Virus record (IMG/VR): IMGVR_UViG_3300030110_000181
Location: 1 to 36,360 of that record
Strand: one strand, 5' to 3'
Source: a virus
DNA length: 36,360 bases
Shown here piece after piece: positions 4,001-36,360 of this stretch. Below the pieces are notes generated by a model. The model saw only the letters and a list, made by a program, of their open reading frames with translations, was not told the DNA's origin and did no database searches. Within the stretch, counting starts at the first letter, position 1; each line of letters starts with the position of its first letter. The position numbers were made by a program, and so were the translations under genes.

Positions 4001-5026
4001 ATGGGGGCAACGCACAAGAAATGCGTTGGGCATGATGATGACGGAACACCTTGCAAGTCTCCCGTCATAGCAAAGGGCACATGCTTCAAGCATTACCAAC
4101 GAATGAAGATTCATGGTTCGCTGGAACTTCCACCCAAGATAGTTAATAAATGCTCTGTTAAGGGTTGCTCTAAGAAATACTACGGCAAAGGTTATTGTGC
4201 GTTGCATTGGGACCGTTGGAGGAGAACTGGCGACCCTCTACAGGGAGGGAGAGAGCAATATTTAGAGGAAATTAAAGCACAACCAGTTACTTGTAAGGTT
4301 GTTTGTCAAGGTGTCCGTTGTAGCACCAAGATTGGCAGAGGTCATGGTGATGGAGTCAATCACAAAGGCAGTTCAGCAAGACAGTATTGTAGTGCCCATG
4401 ACGCACGTTGGCTTATTCACGGTGATGTAAGAGCAGACGACCCAATTCTCATACAGCGCGAAAAAGATGCCAAGCGTCCACCATGTGCTGCTCCTGACTG
4501 CGAGAAAGAAGCAAAAGGGTGGCAAGGTAGCGCTATCTATTGTGATGCTCACAGTTTGTTATTCAAAAGACATGGGCGCTTACACGTCACAAGACAACAC
4601 AACATTGGGCTGACCTGCTCAGTCAAAGGGTGTGACAAAGTGTGCGAAAGCGGAGCAGACAAATTTATTAAAGGCATGTGCACCAGTTGTTATCTGCGAG
4701 TTACTGGGAAAGGTAGTGCGAGCGCTTCTCGTCGAAGAGCAAAAAAAGCGAACACAAAGTGTGATAACCACACAATCCTTGAACTTCAGAAACACTGGAG
4801 AGAAAAAGGAATTGACCCTAAACGTTGCACTTACTGTGACGCTTGGTATCGGCAATGGAAAAACAACTGGAAAACATCGCAAGGCGACCACGTTGTACCA
4901 CTTAACAAAGGCGGCACTAATTTAATGGACAACATGGTTCCATGTTGTTTGTCTTGCAACTCATCCAAAGGAGACAGGATTCTTTATGAAGAGTGGATAC
5001 CACCTAAAGAACGGATAGCAGCATGA
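4001..5026 (+). CDS. HNH endonuclease with tandem zinc-binding modules (341 aa)
   Basis: The C-terminus (about residues 265-335) is an HNH nuclease: CTYCDAWY, GDHVVPLNKGGTN with the catalytic His near residue 296, then MVPCCLSCNSSKGDR; the paired CxxC knuckles hold structural zinc. The N-terminal 250 residues hold five repeats of a Cys/His module of the form C-x4-C...GxC-x2-H or C (DGTPCKSP..GTCFKHY; CSVKGC..GYCALHW; an RQYCSAH unit; a CAAPDC..IYCDAH unit; a CSVKGC..GMCTSC unit). Each looks like a small zinc finger, so the protein is probably a DNA-binding array joined to a nuclease. The next gene overlaps by ATGA. Homing endonuclease or host-DNA nicking roles are both possible. Confidence 0.8.
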   Translation: MGATHKKCVGHDDDGTPCKSPVIAKGTCFKHYQRMKIHGSLELPPKIVNKCSVKGCSKKYYGKGYCALHWDRWRRTGDPLQGGREQYLEEIKAQPVTCKVVCQGVRCSTKIGRGHGDGVNHKGSSARQYCSAHDARWLIHGDVRADDPILIQREKDAKRPPCAAPDCEKEAKGWQGSAIYCDAHSLLFKRHGRLHVTRQHNIGLTCSVKGCDKVCESGADKFIKGMCTSCYLRVTGKGSASASRRRAKKANTKCDNHTILELQKHWREKGIDPKRCTYCDAWYRQWKNNWKTSQGDHVVPLNKGGTNLMDNMVPCCLSCNSSKGDRILYEEWIPPKERIAA

Positions 5027-5712
5027 AAAGGCGAGGAGAAACAGAATGGTTAGACCGTGGCGAATGCTGGGCCATCATGCCAGACGGCTCAAAATGCACA
5101 GGCACCCGCAGAACACTTCAACCATTTGGTGGCCTGGGTTCTGTTGATGGAAAAATAGCTTTGTGTTTTGGTCACCACAGACACTACAAAAAACATAAAG
5201 ACCCAAGAACAGACATCCCTTTGAACGCCATGCAACGCATGACATTCAAAGAACGAGTCGAACACTACATGAACCCAACTAACGGGTACATAAAAATAAC
5301 CCCTTACGGGTGTTACGAATGGCAACGAACCAAACTACAAGCAGGCTACGGACTAGTTAATTCCAAAGTCATAGCTGCTGAATGCGGCACAAAAAACAAT
5401 GTACAAACCCATCGAATGATGTGGGTGTATGCGAATGGGGAACTACCACCAGACGGAATGCATGTACATCACTTGTGTTACAACAAAGCATGCTGTAATC
5501 CTGAACACCTAGAGCTACTCACACCAAGAGAAAACTCTAATGATGCGGCGATTGTTCATCATATGCGTGTCAGATATGCGCAACTGATGGTCAAAAACCG
5601 TCAACTTAAAACACAAATAGGGCGCTTGGAGAAAGAACTTGCCGAAGAAAAAAACAAAAATAAGCAAAGCCGAACGAGACGCATGGCAGAAAAAAGCAAT
5701 GAGCAGAAATAA
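5023..5712 (+). CDS. HNH endonuclease, HNH_3-like (229 aa)
   Basis: Start overlaps the previous stop (ATGA). The N-terminal part has a Cys/His unit (GECWAIMPDGSKCTG...ALCFGHH) related to the modules of the neighbouring HNH protein. The nuclease core is in the middle: GCYEWQRTKLQAGYG, THRMMWVYANGELP, then HVHHLCYNKACCNPEHLELL (about residues 147-166), the usual HNH_3 layout in which adjacent His residues and NPEHL form the metal site. The C-terminus (about 180-229) is a Lys/Glu-rich coiled coil. Two adjacent HNH genes suggest accessory endonuclease invasion or a paired function. Its base composition is more A-rich than its neighbours. Confidence 0.82.
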   Translation: MKRRGETEWLDRGECWAIMPDGSKCTGTRRTLQPFGGLGSVDGKIALCFGHHRHYKKHKDPRTDIPLNAMQRMTFKERVEHYMNPTNGYIKITPYGCYEWQRTKLQAGYGLVNSKVIAAECGTKNNVQTHRMMWVYANGELPPDGMHVHHLCYNKACCNPEHLELLTPRENSNDAAIVHHMRVRYAQLMVKNRQLKTQIGRLEKELAEEKNKNKQSRTRRMAEKSNEQK

Positions 5713-7699: not shown

Positions 7700-8403
7700 T
7701 GGCATTTAAGCCAATGGAACCGCACGAACGTGCGAGTATAGAAGCACAGGTGATACTTAAAGGTGCTGTCGAACTGACAGCAGCACAGGTATCAGCTAAT
7801 GCGACAGACCCCAACGAGGATATTCTGACAACACTGACAGACAATGCGTCAGCGTTGACAAACATTCTTGGGGATACCAAAACACAACTAGGAGCAGCAC
7901 CCGTAGCAGCTACCGAAACTGCGGCAGTAGCCAAAGTTGAAGCAGCATTTCAAGGCGCAACATCAGCACCAAGAAAAGCAGGCGGATCACTGTACCTAGA
8001 TGACCAAGAGTACAACGACATACATAAACTATTCCTAAATGAAAAGAACGCAGGAATCGTATATGCGTCTAAAGACTCAGCTTTTATGGACAATCAAGCG
8101 GTACGCAAGCTGTTTCAAACAGGGGTTCGCCAGTTTCCTCAAGATTATTGGGCAGACTCAATGCGAGGTAAAGACATCCCGACAACAAAAGCAGGCAAAT
8201 GCGGACTGGGAGATTTCAAAATAAAGAAGGGACTATCTATCGGTGAAGATGGACAGTCATACGTAGGACAAGGCGAAGGCAACCACCCTCTAGCAGGGAA
8301 AAGCGGTTACTTCGCAGCACTACAAAAGAACACTTCTTGGTCATGGCCTGAACGACCCGAACCAGTTGACCCACAGGGTTGGCTTGTCGGCGTAGATGCC
8401 TAA
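7699..8403 (+). CDS. Replication-block protein of unknown function (234 aa)
   Basis: AGGAGG (7684-7689) precedes ATG 7699, which overlaps the nuclease stop. The N-terminal third (MEPHERASIEAQVILKGAVE and an Ala/Thr-rich linker to about residue 90) looks helical then disordered; the C-terminal two thirds (SLYLDDQEYNDIHKLFLNEK ... WSWPERPEPVDPQGWLVGVD) is globular. It lies between an exonuclease and a helicase-like ATPase with overlapping ends on both sides, a place where phages often keep a ssDNA-binding or annealing protein. No OB-fold signature or acidic tail is visible, so that role is only a positional guess. Confidence 0.7.
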   Translation: MAFKPMEPHERASIEAQVILKGAVELTAAQVSANATDPNEDILTTLTDNASALTNILGDTKTQLGAAPVAATETAAVAKVEAAFQGATSAPRKAGGSLYLDDQEYNDIHKLFLNEKNAGIVYASKDSAFMDNQAVRKLFQTGVRQFPQDYWADSMRGKDIPTTKAGKCGLGDFKIKKGLSIGEDGQSYVGQGEGNHPLAGKSGYFAALQKNTSWSWPERPEPVDPQGWLVGVDA

Positions 8404-9394
8404 AGAAATCAGCATGGAGGAGGCAAGGCAACTTGTCACGGGGGCGGCAACTGCGTCCGCCCCCGAACCTCCTGCGGCTGAACCACAAGAGATCGAAGGT
8501 GTAAGCGCCCAAGATCTACGCAGATTATTTACCCCCAAAGGGGAACAAGTTCGACGCATGCGGCATGACCTACGTGCTGGCAACGAATGGAGTTTCGGAG
8601 TACGAGCCTTTGACGAGGCCACACTCGGAGGCGCAAGGCCAGGACAACTGGTCACGCTAATAGGTAGATCGCATACAGGTAAAACGTTGCTTGCCATGAA
8701 CATGGTTGCAAAGAATCGCAACCATCGAACACTCTGGGTAAGCCCCGACGAAACAGAAACAATGTTCTGGGGACGGTACTCATCTATTCGCTTGGAGTTC
8801 GATCAACGAGAATGGATTAACCGTTTAATTCGCGAAGATCCCACAGCGTGGGAACGAGTAGAACAAATCATGCAAGATGAAACTAATTTGCATTTTGAAT
8901 CTACTGGCATGTCTGTGGACGATCTAGACAAAGCGTTACGCATTGCATCCACCACATTGTGGGGAGGCAAACGACCAGAAGTTTTAGTTTACGATTTCCT
9001 AGAACTGATACGAGGCGGCGAAGCTGGCGACGCAGCCAGCGTCCAAGCCAAGATCGAATCATTCAAACAACTTGTATCTGACTGGCGACTAGTGGGAATC
9101 ATTATCCACCAGTCAGGCAGAGGTACAGGTAACCGTGGCAAAGCTGGCGGCATTGAAGCAGGCAGGTACGCATCCACAAGTGAAAGCCATTTTCTAATTG
9201 AAACATGGCGTAGATGGGATGACACCAACCTAGATGAGGAAACTCGCGCTCATTATGAGGACGAAGTTTCCGCTGGCCTGTGGAAAAACAAGGCTGGAGA
9301 TGGGGAAAAAGCTGAAGTAAACCTGACCATAGACAGCAGCGGGCGTATCCTAGAGCCAGGAGTTACATGGGAACAAGGCACGTTCGATGGATAG
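8396..9394 (+). CDS. RecA/DnaB-fold ATPase, putative replicative helicase (332 aa)
   Basis: Overlaps the previous stop by ATGCCTAA. After an Ala/Pro-rich N-terminus, a P-loop GRSHTGKT (about residues 90-97) follows the DnaB/RecA-type lead-in FDEATLGGARPGQLVTLIG. A Walker B-like VLVYDFLELI lies near residue 196 and a IIIHQSGRG sensor segment near 238, matching superfamily-4 helicase cores. There is no fused primase domain; the primase is the next gene. It should unwind DNA ahead of the host polymerase. A RecA-like recombinase is the alternative; the lack of a recognisable L2 loop and the neighbour primase favour helicase. Confidence 0.8.
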   Translation: MPKEISMEEARQLVTGAATASAPEPPAAEPQEIEGVSAQDLRRLFTPKGEQVRRMRHDLRAGNEWSFGVRAFDEATLGGARPGQLVTLIGRSHTGKTLLAMNMVAKNRNHRTLWVSPDETETMFWGRYSSIRLEFDQREWINRLIREDPTAWERVEQIMQDETNLHFESTGMSVDDLDKALRIASTTLWGGKRPEVLVYDFLELIRGGEAGDAASVQAKIESFKQLVSDWRLVGIIIHQSGRGTGNRGKAGGIEAGRYASTSESHFLIETWRRWDDTNLDEETRAHYEDEVSAGLWKNKAGDGEKAEVNLTIDSSGRILEPGVTWEQGTFDG

Positions 9395-10430
9395 CGCAGC
9401 AGCAGGAGCATTCAAAAACGTATTCCAAGGTTTTCCGTATGCGTACGGAACAGACTCTGGTGGCTGTCGTTGGATCTCCGTTTCCACAGAACTAATTGAG
9501 AACCACCTGAGCGGCTCTGAGATGATCGGAATTTATCCGATGGTCTACGACCCTCTCAAACAAGAAGGCGGCCCCGCAGGGTTCATACAGTCGTCCTCAG
9601 ACACAAAAGCCAGACCCATCTACCCTGACATGAAACGTGAACTATGGATGTGTACATGGGGAGCCATCGACATAGACGAAGGCGACATTGATTCAGAAAT
9701 AATTGCCAAAAACGCAATTACCTTATTCTCGGCACTAGGGATCACAGCATGGTTAGAACGATCCCGAAGCAAGGGCTACCACGTATGGGTATTTGTAGAA
9801 GAATGGACACCCGTCACGCTAATGCGCAAAGCACTCAAAGCAGTCATGCAACTAGCAGGCGGAGACTATGACGCTGTGTACCCCAAATCAGATTGGTTAG
9901 ATGGACCGCCAGGAAACTACATACGACTTCCCTACGGAGGCGAACGACCTTACGGACGCCAAGTCATGGTTAACTCAGAAACAGGAGAAACCTACGACAT
10001 TTGGGATTTCATAATAGAAGCCGAAGCAGAGCGAACCCCATTAGAAGATCTAGAACGAGCAGCAGAGCTACACCAAGACCCCGAACCCGATATCCCACCA
10101 CCCCGAGACTACAGCAAAGAACCACTCATGCGAATAGATGGTTCACGCCTACGAGGACTGGCGTTAATGATGTACCGTAACGGACCAGTGGATTACTACA
10201 TGCAACACGGAGCAGGGCGAGGGCGACACGGATTCCTAAACCGTTTCGCAAGAGCCATGTTTGAATCAGGATTTGAACGAGGCGACGTAGTGTCATGGAC
10301 CAACGACCTAGACTCACGACTAGGCCAATGGTATGAAGAAGGCCCAAAGTTTATGGGCCGACGAGATGGCGACCGACAAATGGAACGGCTAGTAGACGAT
10401 GCCCAAAAAAGAGCAGTCAGACACGTATGA
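9387..10430 (+). CDS. Archaeo-eukaryotic-type primase (347 aa)
   Basis: Overlaps the helicase by ATGGATAG. Three motifs of the AEP superfamily are in order: GAIDIDEGD (catalytic acidic pair, about residue 92-98), SRSKGYHVWVF (S-x-GxHxW, about 126-135) and GNYIRLPYGG (about 174-183). The motif style resembles the primase part of TOTE-type and phage AEP proteins rather than bacterial DnaG/TOPRIM. The N-terminus includes a Cys in GGCRWISV. The C-terminal third carries a helical region (HGFLNRFARAMFESGFERGD) like a PriCT-type helper domain. It would make primers for phage DNA synthesis with the preceding ATPase. The RusA gene starts 32 nt before its end. Confidence 0.82.
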   Translation: MDSAAAGAFKNVFQGFPYAYGTDSGGCRWISVSTELIENHLSGSEMIGIYPMVYDPLKQEGGPAGFIQSSSDTKARPIYPDMKRELWMCTWGAIDIDEGDIDSEIIAKNAITLFSALGITAWLERSRSKGYHVWVFVEEWTPVTLMRKALKAVMQLAGGDYDAVYPKSDWLDGPPGNYIRLPYGGERPYGRQVMVNSETGETYDIWDFIIEAEAERTPLEDLERAAELHQDPEPDIPPPRDYSKEPLMRIDGSRLRGLALMMYRNGPVDYYMQHGAGRGRHGFLNRFARAMFESGFERGDVVSWTNDLDSRLGQWYEEGPKFMGRRDGDRQMERLVDDAQKRAVRHV

Positions 10431-20736: not shown

Positions 20737-22701
20737 TTACCCTTCCATAGCAGCAGTTAAAGCAGGGTTATAACGCAATGGGTTAAGCACACGGTTTTGC
20801 ACTCTACGCATATCGCGCGCTTCTTGAGCCATAGCTATATCTGCATCTTTTTTGTATGAATCATACAAAGTTTGAATTTGCACAATATCGCGAGGAGCTA
20901 ACCCTTTAGGACCACTCAAACCTTGATCTTTTTGAAGTTCATCTAAATAAGCGCTTTGAGCCATATCAACAGCCTCTAAATCGCCAAGCACTTCGTAATT
21001 ATAAAGTGCTTCTAAATGAGTAAAGAAATCTGGATCAACCCCAGGATTCTTTCCACGGAAATTAGCCATAGTGCCCAATGGCGCAGCAAATTGTCCTTCG
21101 CCTTGCAAGACTTGTTGCTCCATCACATTGTTCAACAACGCTGTCTTAGCACCATCATTCAAACCACTCCACACAGAAACATCAATACCCAAAGTAGCTG
21201 CAACACTCGCATCATCTTTAGCTTTCAAAGCATTAGCAGCAGCTTTCGCAGACTCCTTCAAAGCTTCTCTCATCAAACTATTTTGACGAGCCGCAGCAGC
21301 TTGATTAGCAGAAAACTCTTGACCAGCAATACGTTCACTAGTTCTAAACTCTTGTCCAGCTTCACGTTCAGAAGTTTGGAATCCACGAGTTAAATCAGCT
21401 TGACCAGCTTGGAACGCTTGCGTATCTTCACGAACAAGTTGATCTGCCAACGCAGCAATCATTTGACTATCACGTTGATTAGAGAACTGTTCTTGACGCA
21501 TCATCTCATTAAGCAAAGCTTCAGTTTCGGCTTCATCCAAACTTGCCAACTGAGTACTTAAGTTTTCTTGCAACTGATTAGTTAAAGCAAACTCTTCGTC
21601 ACCCAAAGCCAACTCAGCTTCAGCAGCTAACTGCGCAGGAGCCGCAATACGCTCCGCCGCAGCCATATTCGCTACCTGATTCAAACGAGCCATCGCATCT
21701 TGCGACGACATTCCTTGAGAACGAGCCTGAGAACCCACAAGTTGAGCAACACGCTCAAACTCGTCAGTAAGAGCAGGACCAAGAGCCTCACGAGCCGCCG
21801 CCAAACTAGCTGTAGTGTCACCCACCAAACCAGTAGCACGACTAGCCACTTGCGCTGCAAGTGCTTCTTGTTGCGCAAGTCGATCCGCTTCAGTAGAAGC
21901 AATCTCGGCAGCTAAATCAGTTTCAACAGAACCAATCTGTGTCATACGACGAGCAACTGTTTGCGCTAAACGAGTAGCAGATTCAGCGTTTAATCCACGC
22001 AAATTAGCGGCACGATCAGCCATAAGCTGCGAAATCTCTGCCGTAAAATCACGAGTAGCAAGTTCACCATACAAATCACGTATGCCAGCGCCTACATCGG
22101 GTGCAGGAGATTCAATATCAGGAAATGGAGGAATTACAACACGAAAATCATCGTCAACAGGGGTTTCTACCACGGGAGTTGTTGTTACGGGAGTTGTTGT
22201 TACAGGAGTTGTTGTTACAGGAGTTGTTGTTACAGGAGTCGTTACTGTTGGTTTAGGAGTACCAACACCAAACTCTCTAGCAGCAAAATCCGCAGCTAAC
22301 CTTCTTGCATCAGCTTGCTGGCGTTGTAAATTTCTTTGCCCAGGATCTAACGTTTGAGCAACTTTTTTTATGTTTTCTTCAACTCGTGCCATTGGAGCAT
22401 TTGGACCACGCATTGCACTTGCTTGAGCAGGATTAACAGCATCAGGACTACGTTTAATTGTTGAACCTATTTGCCCTAAAGCTGCCAATCCTCCAACACC
22501 TGGAATAGCGCTAATAGCTGATCTAACAAGACGCTTAGCTATATCAGGAGCAACGTTCGCTAACTGATTGCCTTTAGTAGGACCAATCGCTGGCTGAGAA
22601 TAATCAACAAACCCACCTTGCGTACCCATTAACTGACTAGTTCTACCTATTGGGTCTATTCGTAAACCTTTTTGAAGTAAACGTTCAGCTTGAGTAGCCA
22701 T
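20737..22701 (-). CDS. Internal virion protein, coiled-coil with TTTPV repeats (654 aa)
   Basis: Starts at ATG 22701 sharing TAATG with the previous gene. Residues about 1-130 are globular; 145-180 are a low-complexity linker of five PVTTT units; 200-530 are Ala/Glu/Gln-rich long helices (LAAEIASTEADRLAQQEALA, FQTSEREAGQEFRTSERIAG), clearly coiled-coil; the C-terminus is mixed. There is no enzyme motif. Its place before the 2626-aa protein and after a small 137-aa helical protein mirrors the T7 gp14-gp15-gp16 order, so it is most likely the middle ejection protein of the internal core. Confidence 0.7.
   Translation of the reverse strand: MATQAERLLQKGLRIDPIGRTSQLMGTQGGFVDYSQPAIGPTKGNQLANVAPDIAKRLVRSAISAIPGVGGLAALGQIGSTIKRSPDAVNPAQASAMRGPNAPMARVEENIKKVAQTLDPGQRNLQRQQADARRLAADFAAREFGVGTPKPTVTTPVTTTPVTTTPVTTTPVTTTPVVETPVDDDFRVVIPPFPDIESPAPDVGAGIRDLYGELATRDFTAEISQLMADRAANLRGLNAESATRLAQTVARRMTQIGSVETDLAAEIASTEADRLAQQEALAAQVASRATGLVGDTTASLAAAREALGPALTDEFERVAQLVGSQARSQGMSSQDAMARLNQVANMAAAERIAAPAQLAAEAELALGDEEFALTNQLQENLSTQLASLDEAETEALLNEMMRQEQFSNQRDSQMIAALADQLVREDTQAFQAGQADLTRGFQTSEREAGQEFRTSERIAGQEFSANQAAAARQNSLMREALKESAKAAANALKAKDDASVAATLGIDVSVWSGLNDGAKTALLNNVMEQQVLQGEGQFAAPLGTMANFRGKNPGVDPDFFTHLEALYNYEVLGDLEAVDMAQSAYLDELQKDQGLSGPKGLAPRDIVQIQTLYDSYKKDADIAMAQEARDMRRVQNRVLNPLRYNPALTAAMEG
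22172..22246 (-). repeat. 15-bp coding tandem repeat (five units)
   Basis: Five units of ACRGGAGTTGTTGTT on the plus strand (the last one diverged), encoding repeated TTTPV on the minus strand in the 654-aa internal protein. A flexible, possibly surface-exposed linker is the likely product. Units 1-2 and 3-4 are identical pairs, pointing to recent slippage. Confidence 0.8.
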
Positions 22702-30378: not shown

Positions 30379-32286
30379 TTACTGCATGTTCGGCAACTCT
30401 ACACCCATTTGGTTTTGGAGTTGACTTATCAGTTCGGGTGGTACTCCGCCTGTGCCTTCAAAAACTTGTGTAGGGATTGGTCCTGGTCCCATGCCGCCTT
30501 GCGACATTGGAGGCGCCCCAAAAGGATCAGCTACTCCCCCAGATTCCTCTTGCGCAACTTGAGCGTCAAGAGGAGTTTGTTGTTGAATTATGTAACGATC
30601 AGGGTCATTAATCCCAAACCCATAAGACAACACATGTTTTGCTATTTCCGTAGGATCAACAACTGTGCCAATCAAAGGACCCATAGCGTTTAGCAAAGAA
30701 ATTGCTTGTTGGCGGCGAGCCGTTTCGTTAAACGGTTGCGTAGAGCCGCCTTCTACAGAGAAATCAAATTCTCCGATAATGTCATCACGGGTGTAAGCGA
30801 CAAAAAACTTTTCGTCGTCTTTGCCTGTGATGCGCACCATTTGTGCGTCGGTCATGTACTGCATCATTAGTTGCATGACCATGCGTGCTGTTTCTGAAAT
30901 AGAAATTTCTACTATTGCAAGTTTGTCAGCAGCACGAGCATTGCCTGCATCAACAATGATGCTGGCTTCTGTTGCAGTACGACGAGTTTCGGGCATTTGC
31001 CCACGGGCATATTCAGATACGCCGCTTACAGTGTTGATATCCCCTTCGATAATGTTGGAGTGGTTGTACATTTCGGGGGCAAGAGGGACTTGCGGTAATG
31101 GTTGGACCACTCCCGCAAGGTCACGGTTCTCGTCGATAACAGGAACAAAACGTCCATCTTCGTCAGATTCCAATGCTTCACGGCCTTCAGGCCCAAACGA
31201 ACGTTCGTGATACAAGTACTTTCGTGCGTAACGTTTCCTGTGGTTCACCATTTGTGAACGAGTTTTGTTTAGTTCTTCTTGAAGCGATTCGATAGCTTCA
31301 AGGTCACCCATTGGGTAGAACATGTCAGGAACGTCGTAGTTCCGCATCATTACAAACGGGTGACCAAAGTGATACGGCATTGGTGTTGGGTCAAGTAGGT
31401 AATCGTCACCGCTTTCCGCACACACTGAAATAGTGCCATCTTCAAGATCATAAAATTCGTACAACGTAACTCTTGCAGTTACTTCGTTATACATTTCACG
31501 TTCATCGTCGCCATCCCAGCGGTAACGCACACCAGAATCAGCTACAAGATCTTGACGTGTTGAACGCTTAAACCTTTTATCTCTTTTAACTTCTGCAAGT
31601 GGACGCACAATACGTTGAGCAATCCAACGAGCATCATCCATACATGTAGCTTCAGGGTCGATAAGCATATCGAACGGGCTAATGCGCTCTACGAATGCTT
31701 GATCTTCAACAACTTCCATTTTTTTAGATGGAATAGCATCCATGACATCCTGATCTGACGGTAAATCGTTTACCATTTCAGGGTTGTCGTAAGCGAACTG
31801 GTCTACTTCTAGAGTTGCTCGGTTGTATTCTTCCGCCATTTCAGCGGGAGTTAATTCTCGTTCTTCTTCAACGAACCGCCAACCGACTTTAAGCCAGCCG
31901 TGTCCGATGATAAGAAAGTCCTTAACTGCCCGCCGAAATGGTTTCCGATAGTCGTGATGTCTCCACAGATAATTTATAACTGCCTCTACAAAAACGGCTC
32001 GTGATTCGTCACCCTCTTTGTTTGCTGTGACAGTTATCTTCGGATGGTTTACCGCAACGCTCGGAGAGATTACGTTAACAGTAGAGAAAGCCATATTGAC
32101 AGAAATGCGGTCATAACCCACATTTCCTTCATAACCTCCACCAGTACCACCGAATGTTTTACCTCTGTAAAGGTCAATCATTCGATGCCACTTAGCGTCG
32201 TAGCCTTCTTCGCTACGCCACTTGTAAGTGTTATCTAGTCTCTCTTTAGTTTGAGAGAAACGGTCAGCTTTCGTCATCCGTGCCAT
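30379..32286 (-). CDS. Portal protein, P22-like (635 aa)
   Basis: Size and sequence fit the P22-type portal: KWHRMIDLYRG near the N-terminus, ISVNMAFSTVNVISPSVAVN, a charged stem (YLWRHHDYRKPFRRAVKDFL), ISPFDMLIDPEATCMDDARW (the common SPFDxxxDP motif), then YDVPDMFYPMGDLEAIESLQ with QEELNKTRSQMVNHRK, and a helical C-terminal crown. It forms the twelve-fold ring for DNA entry and exit and docks both terminase and adaptor. No clear SD is visible upstream (AAAGTTGGGTTGAATA before ATG). The TerL nuclease and two small proteins come before it. Confidence 0.9.
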   Translation of the reverse strand: MARMTKADRFSQTKERLDNTYKWRSEEGYDAKWHRMIDLYRGKTFGGTGGGYEGNVGYDRISVNMAFSTVNVISPSVAVNHPKITVTANKEGDESRAVFVEAVINYLWRHHDYRKPFRRAVKDFLIIGHGWLKVGWRFVEEERELTPAEMAEEYNRATLEVDQFAYDNPEMVNDLPSDQDVMDAIPSKKMEVVEDQAFVERISPFDMLIDPEATCMDDARWIAQRIVRPLAEVKRDKRFKRSTRQDLVADSGVRYRWDGDDEREMYNEVTARVTLYEFYDLEDGTISVCAESGDDYLLDPTPMPYHFGHPFVMMRNYDVPDMFYPMGDLEAIESLQEELNKTRSQMVNHRKRYARKYLYHERSFGPEGREALESDEDGRFVPVIDENRDLAGVVQPLPQVPLAPEMYNHSNIIEGDINTVSGVSEYARGQMPETRRTATEASIIVDAGNARAADKLAIVEISISETARMVMQLMMQYMTDAQMVRITGKDDEKFFVAYTRDDIIGEFDFSVEGGSTQPFNETARRQQAISLLNAMGPLIGTVVDPTEIAKHVLSYGFGINDPDRYIIQQQTPLDAQVAQEESGGVADPFGAPPMSQGGMGPGPIPTQVFEGTGGVPPELISQLQNQMGVELPNMQ

Positions 32287-32854: not shown

Positions 32855-33520
32855 TTAAGTTGTCCCACGGATCGTGTTCAAGCCAATCGTATCGCCTACA
32901 GGCTCATGTTTGTTGGCTTTACGCACCCACCAATCAAACGTCCACATATCATCCACTTCCTGAACGTACTCAGGAACAAACGCATACTTACGCATTTGGT
33001 TAGCTAACGCCAACGCCATAACACGGTCATCATGCGGAGAACCCGACATGCCGCCACGTTCATTACGCACATAAGTACGCAATTCAGCAATAGTGTGCTG
33101 ATCTTTAATAAGTAACTCATCGTTACGCAAAGCCATAGACAAATCGTCAATCATTAACGGCTTAGACGTACGTGTAGTTTTCCACCCAAACTCTTGCGAC
33201 ATACGATTTGTTTGACTATTCAACGACCTACGCCGAAACATGTTCGGGTAACCCAACTGACGTAACTGCGTAATCGTAGTCAACCCGTGGTTATTGGACT
33301 CCACACAACACAAAGCATTGCCGTACCAAATTCCAAGGTTATGTACCTCGTATGCCAACTCATCAGGCGGAATATGACCGTGCCACACCGCAACCTGCGT
33401 GCCTTCTCTCGCATCCAATACCTGAATACACGAATAATCACCATGACCTAAACCTTCAGCCGTGTCCACGCCAAGGACGTATCCCCCCCACCGCTCTGGT
33501 TCCTGCCACACAGTTAGCAT
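32855..33520 (-). CDS. Large terminase subunit, nuclease part (221 aa), separate gene
   Basis: Encodes the RNase H-like nuclease half of TerL. VLGVDTAEGLGHGDYSCIQV holds the first metal Asp (about residue 19), ALCCVESNNHG the Glu (about 74) and SPHDDRVMALALA the last Asp residues (about 163). ATG 33520 has TTGGAG 5 nt upstream and overlaps the ATPase stop as ATGCTAA. In its own frame a TAG lies directly before the ATG (33523-33521), so this protein cannot extend upstream. It should cut the concatemer when the head is full, paired with the ATPase encoded next door. Confidence 0.85.
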   Translation of the reverse strand: MLTVWQEPERWGGYVLGVDTAEGLGHGDYSCIQVLDAREGTQVAVWHGHIPPDELAYEVHNLGIWYGNALCCVESNNHGLTTITQLRQLGYPNMFRRRSLNSQTNRMSQEFGWKTTRTSKPLMIDDLSMALRNDELLIKDQHTIAELRTYVRNERGGMSGSPHDDRVMALALANQMRKYAFVPEYVQEVDDMWTFDWWVRKANKHEPVGDTIGLNTIRGTT

Positions 33521-34401
33521 CTAAACTCCAAGACTTTCGGCTGAATCTCGTAAAGATAGCCGTAACGACCAGCTTCCACATGCATCTGCATAGCGTCAAG
33601 AACATCCAAATCAAACACAGGATTTCCCGAACGAATAAAAGCCTCTTCGGGGGTGGTCGGGTATTCCTGAGCCAACTGCCACGGGAGCATCGAATCACGC
33701 TTTGATTCATACCAAGACTCATCCCTATCCCCCGTAGCACTCCACGGAAAAAACATAGGCGAAAACTTGTTATTCCCCGTAGTAGCACCAGTCCACAAAT
33801 GATGAAAAAAGTTACCAGACCCATTTGCCGTACTTAACCCAATAATACGGCCCCCCACATCAGCTACAGGTTCAATACTGGCCCATGCGTCCTCTGGTGA
33901 AGGTAAGAAAGCCCATTCGTCAACCACGACGAGGCTGGCCGATTCTCCACGAGCAGGGTCGCTCGCTGAAGGCATCGAAACGATTTGCGATCCATTGTCA
34001 AAAGCCATTCTTTGCTGGTGTTCGACCAAGGACTTAGGTCCACGATTTATCATCCAATCTGGCAAATGCTTTGCCCCATACTTTGTTTTTTTCAACAACA
34101 AAACTGACTCTCTCTCAGTACGAGAGAGGTCAATAATGTTTTGATCGGAATGAAAAAACGCCAGCCAAAACTGGTGAGCAGCAACCAGCGTTGTCCACCC
34201 AATCTGTCTAGCTTTCAGTGTAAGCGAATATCTATTCTCTGCCCACTCTTTAAGAGCCGTTTCCTGAGCTTCACGTAAAGAAAAAAGAATACGACCGTGA
34301 GCAGGGTGAGCAATGTACCAATAATTCTCAAGAAAATACTTCTCACTTCTGACACACTTCCGCCATTCAGCTTCTTGCCGTAACTCAGTTAATCGACTCA
34401 T
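33514..34401 (-). CDS. Large terminase subunit, ATPase part (295 aa), separate gene
   Basis: Holds the motor half of TerL only: a WRKCVRSEKYFLENYWYI lead, a Walker A-like LTLKARQIGWTTL (about residues 58-70), a Walker B VVVDEWAF (about 159-166) with the catalytic Glu, and the coupling motif IGLSTANGSG (about 188-197). The chain ends LEFRC where the two domains are normally joined. Normal TerL proteins are 450-600 aa; this one plus the downstream nuclease gene adds to 516. It powers DNA translocation into the prohead. Confidence 0.88.
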   Translation of the reverse strand: MSRLTELRQEAEWRKCVRSEKYFLENYWYIAHPAHGRILFSLREAQETALKEWAENRYSLTLKARQIGWTTLVAAHQFWLAFFHSDQNIIDLSRTERESVLLLKKTKYGAKHLPDWMINRGPKSLVEHQQRMAFDNGSQIVSMPSASDPARGESASLVVVDEWAFLPSPEDAWASIEPVADVGGRIIGLSTANGSGNFFHHLWTGATTGNNKFSPMFFPWSATGDRDESWYESKRDSMLPWQLAQEYPTTPEEAFIRSGNPVFDLDVLDAMQMHVEAGRYGYLYEIQPKVLEFRC

Positions 34402-35263: not shown

Positions 35264-35376
35264 TAACGCTTTTTCCGCTTATTCGTCATCTTCTTACCAG
35301 TACGCTTCGCCTCTTTAGCAGCCGCAGCCCGACCCTTAGACGTATATGAATAGTGTTTCTTGCCAACCTTAGGCAT
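35263..35376 (-). CDS. Protamine-like basic peptide (37 aa)
   Basis: ATG 35376 lies inside the end of TerS (ATGCCTAA overlap) and the stop shares TAATG with the next start. Sequence MPKVGKKHYSYTSKGRAAAA then KEAKRTGKKMTNKRKKR; the VGKKxYxYTxKGxxAAxKAAKxTGKK pattern is a recurrent short phage protein. Net charge is very high for 37 residues. Likely a DNA-binding or head-associated peptide. Confidence 0.7.
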   Translation of the reverse strand: MPKVGKKHYSYTSKGRAAAAKEAKRTGKKMTNKRKKR

Positions 35377-35839
35377 CTTCCAAACCACCTTTAATTAATC
35401 GCAGGGAAGCCACTTCCTCTTCCAACAACGAAGCAAGCTCGTCATCACTAAAGGAAGAAACGTCCCGCTCATCTTCCATAACCACTTTACGCTTCGGCGT
35501 AAACTTTTCAATGTATTGCAAATACAAAGACGCAGCCTTCACATCACCACTGGCAGCCTGCTGCCAAAGAGCATCAATAACGCTCTGAACACGTTCAGGG
35601 TTGATGTTCAGTTCTGCTGCACGACGATCCCACTCACGAATGAACCGTGGATCTCTTTTTATGCGGCGAACAGAATCCTGATGGATGTCCTGTTCAGCCG
35701 CCCACTCTTTCTGAGTCTTAGGTAACCTTTCAGGTCCTAACAACAGCCACTCTAGTAACGCCTTCCAAGTGTCAGGCATCACTTTCTCATTAGAGTCCTC
35801 GTCCCAAGACCAGCCTCGGCCTCCACCATTCTGTGGCAT
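35369..35839 (-). CDS. Small terminase subunit, TerS-like (156 aa)
   Basis: ATG 35839 has AAGGAG 7 nt upstream; the frame from 35872 adds 11 basic residues but without an RBS. The N-terminal half has a helix-turn-helix (LPKTQKEWAAEQDIHQDSVR then RIKRDPRFIREWDRRAAELN) that would bind the packaging site, followed by an oligomerisation region (VQSVIDALWQQAASGDVKAA SLYLQ) and the YIEKFTPKRK motif frequent at the end of TerS cores. An acidic tail (DERDVSSFSDDELASLLEEE) probably contacts TerL. First gene of the late unit. Confidence 0.8.
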   Translation of the reverse strand: MPQNGGGRGWSWDEDSNEKVMPDTWKALLEWLLLGPERLPKTQKEWAAEQDIHQDSVRRIKRDPRFIREWDRRAAELNINPERVQSVIDALWQQAASGDVKAASLYLQYIEKFTPKRKVVMEDERDVSSFSDDELASLLEEEVASLRLIKGGLEDA

Positions 35840-35902
35840 GTATGCGCTCCTTCGTTTACGTACTACCACCATAGATCAGATGTCCCAAGCAGACACCTAA
35901 CT

Positions 35903-36280: not shown

Positions 36281-36360
36281 TAGGTGCCGTGCCCTGTCCA
36301 TAACTGTGTGCGGGGGCAAGCGGACGGCCGTAGGGGGTAGGCAACGGATCGGGTTAGGAA
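36281..36360. repeat. Terminal direct repeat, right copy (pairs with 1-80)
   Basis: Repeats bases 1-80 with one mismatch (36358 G versus 78 A). See the left copy for interpretation. The unit also has GGGGG-rich elements (CGGGGGCAAGCGGACGG, TAGGGGGTAGG) continuing the G-richness of the control region. Confidence 0.85.

Follow-up and report, generated by a model that had tools for sequence, protein, structure and literature searches.

A phage family in which the ATPase and nuclease parts of the large terminase are encoded by two separate, mostly overlapping genes

The window analysed here, i.e. the whole stretch of 36,360 nt, is the entire IMG/VR virus record IMGVR_UViG_3300030110_000181. Its first 50 bases are repeated exactly at position 36281 (36281-36360 being the end of the record), while the first 80 bases gave no full match. 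The record looks terminally redundant or circular and, since its first 50 bases recur in this way, it may represent a complete genome. As shown in Table 1, two ORFs encoding the two parts of a large terminase are located between a probable small terminase gene and a portal gene, as in a packaging module (the small-terminase assignment is weak). Two small ORFs lie between the probable small terminase gene and the ATPase gene, and another two between the nuclease gene and the portal gene.

The ATPase ORF terminates with TAA (33516-33514) and the nuclease ORF starts with ATG (33520-33518), the two being read in different frames. A TAG codon of the nuclease frame (33523-33521) lies immediately 5' of this ATG. 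The coordinates and the junction given for the two ORFs in a preliminary sequence-only reading of the window proved exact, and the Shine-Dalgarno sequence that it placed 5 nt 5' of the nuclease ATG is present at 33531-33526. The TAG directly before the ATG, to which the same reading drew attention, holds for the window, but not as a general feature: in relatives, the distance from the last nuclease-frame stop to the ATPase stop ranges from 4 to 137 nt, with a median of 34 (237 distinct junctions).

Table 1. Terminase genes, junction elements, catalytic motifs and neighbouring packaging genes identified in the window.
Feature	Position	Strand	Evidence
Gene for the ATPase (motor) chain of the split large terminase, 295 aa	33514..34401	-	Pfam Terminase_6N 1.2e-7; profile match to T4 gp17 (3ezk) 1.8e-32
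Gene for the nuclease chain of the split large terminase, 221 aa	32855..33520	-	Pfam Terminase_6C 1e-4; PDB profiles 3c6a 1.9e-11 and 3ezk 6e-9; fold Z 22.3 to T4 gp17 383-562
7-nt stop/start overlap ATGCTAA linking both cistrons	33514..33520	-	sequence; junction types in relatives
Shine-Dalgarno-like TTGGAG for the nuclease gene, within the ATPase coding sequence, 5 nt 5' of ATG	33526..33531	-	sequence; ribosome-binding strength vs synonymous recoding in relatives
Walker A KARQIGWTT, ATPase residues 63-71	34189..34215	-	invariant in 30/30 representatives; exact string in 202/271
Walker B / catalytic carboxylate D161-E162 (VVVDEWAF)	33916..33921	-	invariant in 30/30; VDEWAF in 271/271
Coupling motif S190-T-A-N193	33823..33834	-	invariant in 30/30; LSTANG in 271/271
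Nuclease catalytic Asp D19 (aligned with gp17 TLDCSEG)	33464..33466	-	invariant in 30/30; alignment
Nuclease catalytic Glu E74 (aligned with gp17 YIELN)	33299..33301	-	invariant in 30/30; alignment
Nuclease catalytic Asp pair D164-D165 (aligned with gp17 HDDLVM)	33026..33031	-	invariant in 30/30; alignment
Terminal E-F-R motif, ATPase residues 292-294, after variable linker; putative docking strand	33520..33528	-	[EAR][FW][RKQ] in 271/271; column entropies
Probable terminase small subunit gene, 167 aa, 5' of ATPase gene	35369..35872	-	Pfam HTH_Tnp_1_2 6.9e-7; PHROG terminase small subunit 4.3e-4 (weak)
Portal protein gene, 3' in the same packaging module	30379..32286	-	Pfam SU10_portal 2.8e-27

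The large subunit of terminase is generally described as one chain composed of two domains. The first of the two products encoded in the window matched Terminase_6N with 32 bits (Pfam cut-off of 22), and its profile aligned with chain positions 108-321 of T4 gp17 (3ezk). The match of the second product to Terminase_6C was barely above the Pfam cut-off (22.8 vs 22.6 bits), and its identity as a nuclease is firmer by profile (RB49 gp17 nuclease, 3c6a; T4 gp17, 3ezk, from position 386) and by fold: the predicted structure (pLDDT 77) was superimposed on residues 383-562 of T4 gp17 with an rmsd of 1.9 over 172 residues. The AlphaFold2 model of the ATPase chain (pLDDT 48) was too poor and was left out of the fold search. 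Since the modelled nuclease aligns with gp17 383-562, the nuclease gene starts where the folded domain does, and the break falls between the two domains, in the hinge of a T4 gp17-type terminase. The pair shares with T4 gp17 both domains (by profile and, for the nuclease, also by fold), the motifs, the nuclease triad and the domain order. Unlike gp17, which is one chain with a hinge, the terminase of the window does not combine the two domains in a single hinged polypeptide, and the break in its family is natural and fixed; it is a two-polypeptide variant of the T4 gp17 type without the standard architecture.

Walker A, the Walker B/carboxylate and the coupling motif were all recognised in the P-loop ATPase domain, as were the three acidic residues in the RNase H-fold nuclease domain. 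The catalytic residues are invariant in all 30 representatives, which bears out the early impression that the motifs of both domains are intact. The motif counts in Table 1 refer to 271 distinct full-length ATPase chains; searched as simple patterns, the three nuclease motifs were detected in 261, 269 and 260 of the 271, and the rest may be cut or variant. The Walker A loop of the window has a Lys at its start and a Trp where gp17 has its Walker lysine, K166. A degenerate ATPase, considered on account of this Trp, was rejected: seven of nine rows with a fused terminase share the loop LKARQ[ILM]G, also without that lysine (LKARQ[ILM]G[FIL]ST; L158 and L160 fall outside the pattern used).

Relatives were collected by scanning viral contigs with one half of the terminase of the window or of divergent members (the best 80 of several hundred loci per scan) and genome contigs with the ATPase alignment. 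A fused gene should have been as retrievable as a split one, because every query comprised one half only. Both parts were counted when they matched at E 1e-15, and identities refer to the nearer of the two query ATPases. With the best 80 loci taken per viral scan, both parts were present in 384 loci, 379 of which carried the split, at ATPase identities of 70-100%; the other five (L153 and L158-L161) were fused and distant (34-50%). As several loci cover the same contig, we used the count of distinct ATPase-ORF DNAs, of which the 379 split loci comprise 297. In 293 of these the two parts are adjacent and in different frames, in three they are separated by an intervening gene, and one (L429) is broken. 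Two loci on contigs of metagenome-assembled genomes (MAGs), L270 and L271, are also split. The sequence-only reading took the ORFs for two genes, with a working two-chain terminase as a possible, unusual outcome, and pointed to related metagenomic phages as the place to look for the same split and, should all close relatives carry a fused gene, for its refutation. Among the loci fetched, these relatives supplied the 379 split cases, and no fused gene at an ATPase identity of at least 70% was found in the best 80 loci per viral scan. This recurrence goes far beyond chance: we are dealing with two real genes, as the early interpretation had it, and the split is fixed in this phage family.

The situation is different in the 37 distant loci (L153-L189): both parts were detected at E 1e-3 in 28, in each case within one ORF (28/28), the nuclease alone in eight and the ATPase alone in one. 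The fused distant loci include a Traversvirus, Vibrio phages and MW202803.1 (Podoviridae sp. ct52p938, Manatee Spring), whose TerL is the best named match in the phages collection, with identities of 50% (ATPase) and 47% (nuclease). Its terL lies after a 'DNA-packaging protein' gene and is followed by one small gene and a 'head to tail joining protein' gene. Unlike the pair of the window, it is a single gene of 560 aa, with the residues DGGN at the site where the split family breaks.

Both halves are under strong purifying selection. The median dN/dS of close pairs was 0.081 for the ATPase (941 pairs, maximum 0.220) and 0.080 for the nuclease (808 pairs, maximum 0.217). Eighteen long records of 35-81 kb, among them the window, each yielded exactly one Terminase_6N match and one nuclease match. 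The nuclease copies were counted with the nuclease alignment, since a six-frame PF17289 search caught two of the 18 records and missed the gene of the window itself. No second, rescuing terminase was found in these 18 records with Terminase_6N and the nuclease alignment, and of the four ORFs of the window longer than 400 aa, one encodes the portal and three are without a terminase match in PHROGs or Pfam. The family thus carries two intact genes that start and stop independently, are under purifying selection and, in the 18 long records, have no second copy; two separate polypeptides follow from these genes.

These data also bear on the reading that the split reflects an indel introduced during sequencing or assembly, or a pseudogene in decay. 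Such events do exist, as seen in L429, whose ATPase frame stops early, after 255 codons, but this is the sole broken half among the 297 distinct loci. Hundreds of loci, from separate IMG/VR contigs, show the same split, as do two MAG contigs, and purifying selection acts strongly on both halves. We therefore consider this explanation scarcely credible, in line with the initial view that a chance indel is implausible.

To examine the translation of the nuclease gene, the protein was held fixed and synonymous codons were resampled, and the energy of anti-Shine-Dalgarno pairing 5' of the nuclease start was compared. Spacing denotes the position of the nuclease start relative to the first base of the ATPase stop codon. 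Pairing was stronger than in the resampled sequences in all three main spacing classes: -5.60 vs -3.66 at spacing -4 (n=74), -4.65 vs -3.19 at -1 (n=110) and -5.38 vs -3.39 at -17 (n=74), and none of the 100 recodings was as strong in any class; these values, like the codon counts below, come from related sequences, so that the events are not independent. In an earlier test, in which the -1 class comprised eight sequences, its pairing was not stronger than resampled; with 110 sequences it was. The synonymous sites 5' of the nuclease start thus favour ribosome binding; the start of the ATPase gene itself averaged -3.17 in the larger comparison. In the earlier test, the mean pairing energy was -5.37 at nuclease starts vs -2.81 at internal ATG/GTG controls. 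Energies of -6 or lower were observed for 8.3% of nuclease starts (157 sequences) vs 14.4% of 5158 internal ATG/GTG controls; the ribosome-binding sites of the nuclease gene are uniform but moderate. In the terminal E[FW][RK], Glu is encoded by GAG in 71 of 72 sequences of the -4 class and in 100 of 110 of the -1 class. In the -17 class, GAG was found in 40 of 64 and GAA in 24, which, with GAG at 57% overall, indicates no preference, as expected if the start has moved.

The junction itself has been rebuilt repeatedly. The distinct loci show spacings of -1 (130), -4 (78), -17 (74), +5 (5), +2 (4), -29 (1) and -26 (1), with 829 or 844 in three further loci and the broken L429 counted apart. At least 11 spacing changes are needed on the ATPase tree (72 representatives, junction residues excluded), without any fused member. 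In the three loci with long spacing an ORF is situated between the halves (282 aa in L313 and L330, 277 aa in L324), linked on both sides by ATGA or GTGA overlaps. In L351, on another contig, the ATPase DNA and the length of the insert are the same as in L324, which brings the insert to four contigs. The inserted gene matched the PHROG for phosphoadenosine phosphosulfate (PAPS) reductase (1.2e-55 for L313, 1.2e-45 for L324), while the Pfam PAPS_reduct matches of these two inserts (4e-4 and 5e-4) were under the cut-off. L313 and L324 occupy two places on the ATPase tree. When 26 loci with the reductase were retrieved, terminase parts were present within the 2-kb flanks in two only, both from the contigs that also carry L313 and L330. 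As no ribosome can slip over an entire foreign gene, translation of the nuclease in the loci with the inserted gene begins at the start codon of the nuclease itself.

Programmed ribosomal frameshifting, by which some fused TerL would still be produced, is compatible with the overlap of the genes in most members and with the constant -1 relation of the larger class (217 of the 297 distinct loci). The opposite relation was observed in 76 of the 297, however, and the two relations would require shifts in opposite directions. Out of 237 distinct junctions, with both frame relations included, only three have a canonical -1 slippery heptamer (X_XXY_YYZ) in the shared open stretch. In the window, this stretch is two codons long after TAG 33523-33521, which bars a -1 slip any earlier than these. 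Together with the unrelated gene that intervenes in three distinct loci, this led us to reject frameshifting as very improbable, and to do so more firmly than the sequence-only reading, which considered it nearly excluded.

Interruptions of terL by introns or inteins are documented in ICP1, in Jug phages and in the crAss-like Delta group (PMC10448857, PMC12363816 and PMC7886860), and splicing restores one protein there. In the family described here, each half has its own start and stop. An interrupted gene rejoined by a self-splicing intron or an intein is thus an extremely improbable reading: in 293 of the 297 distinct loci the two parts either share bases or have 2 nt between them, which leaves no room for an intron, and the interposed gene, where there is one, is the PAPS reductase with start/stop overlaps on both sides. 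Introns at Rfam gathering scores were found neither in the window nor in 10 related loci, and with no intervening splicing element between the parts this candidate was discarded.

Phylogenetic analysis gave partly discordant pictures of the origin of the split. In the ATPase tree, 32 split rows are separated from nine fused rows with a support of 98/95. The first nuclease tree was disturbed by long branches; in a reduced tree (five fused rows, L154, L158, L159, L160 and L163, dropped and L162 added) the fused L153 and L162, on long branches, fell inside the split group, and a single split clade was mildly rejected on the nuclease tree by the AU test (p 0.019). Both a single fission with later exchange of nuclease halves and a long-branch artefact are possible. 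The split is common to nuclease chains that are now approx. 65% identical to that of the window.

Comparison with a fused relative suggests how the break may be arranged in the protein. The sequence DVQLV-DGGN-FHIWE of fused L153 corresponds to KVLEFRC / MLTVWQE in the window; GNPVF and the strand lie 38 residues apart in L153 and 37 in the window, and the predicted nuclease model has a short strand at residues 2-4. The junction may therefore represent a beta-hairpin cut in its turn, DGGN being the putative beta-turn. Many columns of the ATPase linker have entropies of 2-3.5 bits, except for two glycines and a few others, while at its end the values drop to 0.59 (E), 0.60 (F) and 0.44 bits (R). 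The terminal motif is retained even where the nuclease start sits elsewhere. In the 240-row table of ATPase tails some rows (e.g. L099, L105, L275) are read out of frame because the contig begins inside the gene; the terminal motif was counted in full-length rows only.

According to reviews of T4 (PMC3012670 and PMC9958956), gp17 split at the linker keeps its ATPase and nuclease functions and wholly loses DNA translocation. It follows that a two-chain motor needs something that T4 lacks. In the family of the window, where such a split has arisen naturally, the chains are re-joined non-covalently or the nuclease stays outside the moving motor. The former is, in our judgement, quite likely, i.e. 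a stable fission at the hinge gave rise to a translationally coupled two-polypeptide terminase that is reassembled non-covalently and works like T4 gp17. In this reading, the break lies at the hinge between the ATPase and nuclease domains, and the two cistrons, as presumably co-transcribed neighbours, would be coupled through the stop/start overlap and the Shine-Dalgarno sequence in the end of the ATPase gene, which would yield similar amounts of both chains. The ATPase chain ends with the conserved E-F-R after the variable linker and the nuclease chain starts with the first strand of the RNase H fold. The chains could then pair non-covalently at the cut hairpin and at the ATPase/nuclease face, forming a two-chain subunit that would dock, assemble into the packaging ring and translocate DNA.

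In the alternative arrangement, the ring that moves DNA at the portal would consist of the ATPase chain alone, and the nuclease, as a separate enzyme, would join only for the initiation and termination cuts, so that there would be no two-chain motor subunit in the course of translocation. The halves are indeed separate genes that tolerate an unrelated gene in between, and T4 nuclease mutants still package linear DNA (PMC3012670). The T4 model, however, places the translocation groove on the C-domain (PMC3012670 and PMC9958956). The terminal EFR motif and the near-constant linker length suggest that the chains still meet, and long separation has remained rare (three of 297 distinct loci) even though the spacing has turned over. 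We consider this arrangement unlikely, and favour non-covalent reassembly. It appears rather probable that, re-joined or decoupled, the engine (ATPase) and the DNA-gripping and DNA-cutting nuclease are separate and perhaps exchangeable parts, and that a covalent hinge is not needed for translocation.

Division of an essential phage enzyme into two functional peptides is exemplified by the genes-in-pieces ribonucleotide reductase (Friedrich et al. 2007, as cited in PMC10448857). In that case the split is linked to a homing endonuclease, none of which was present at the terminase junctions examined; moreover, the reductase is an enzyme, whereas the protein split in the family of the window is a force-generating motor. 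The OM43 phages MEP401 and MEP402 (PMC10580990) resemble the window in that a core enzyme (DNA polymerase) is encoded by two ORFs across a phage group. They differ from it in that a small ORF separates the polymerase ORFs, and the enzyme is a different one. A review describes the TerL-associated nuclease domain as a universal feature across Caudovirales (PMC7824862). A search by title or beginning of abstract, with subscription papers mostly outside its range, returned no report of a two-polypeptide TerL; priority is not established.

The split questions the view that the engine and cutter parts of the terminase must be physically joined. The family has kept the split while its junction was rebuilt many times, which makes it testable whether force passes via a covalent linker or via the contact surface of ATPase and nuclease, and supplies a natural two-part motor that could be used in reconstitution. 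In these phages, gene callers and phylogenies built on TerL will encounter two partial genes.

With regard to the host, the window encodes an endolysin/amidase, which favours a bacterium. The names of the two MAGs whose contigs carry split loci (Acidimicrobiaceae TMED189 for L270, Euryarchaeota SAT11 for L271) are conflicting host hints.

Several other features of the window are worth mentioning. Two neighbouring HNH endonuclease genes (4001-5026 and 5023-5712, + strand; PHROGs) are distant from the terminase. A 347-aa protein with an archaeo-eukaryotic-type primase domain (9387-10430, + strand; Pfam AEP-TOTE 8.7e-18) is encoded next to a DnaB/KaiC-like ATPase (8396-9394). On the - strand, a 654-aa protein with tandem TPVTT repeats (20737-22701), without PHROG or Pfam matches, adjoins a 2626-aa protein with a weak PHROG match only. 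Finally, a Type II hammerhead ribozyme was detected at 423-489 on the + strand (Rfam RF02276, 40.2 bits), and a second one in a relative, L115 (742-818, minus strand, 45.7 bits), one of 10 related stretches searched.
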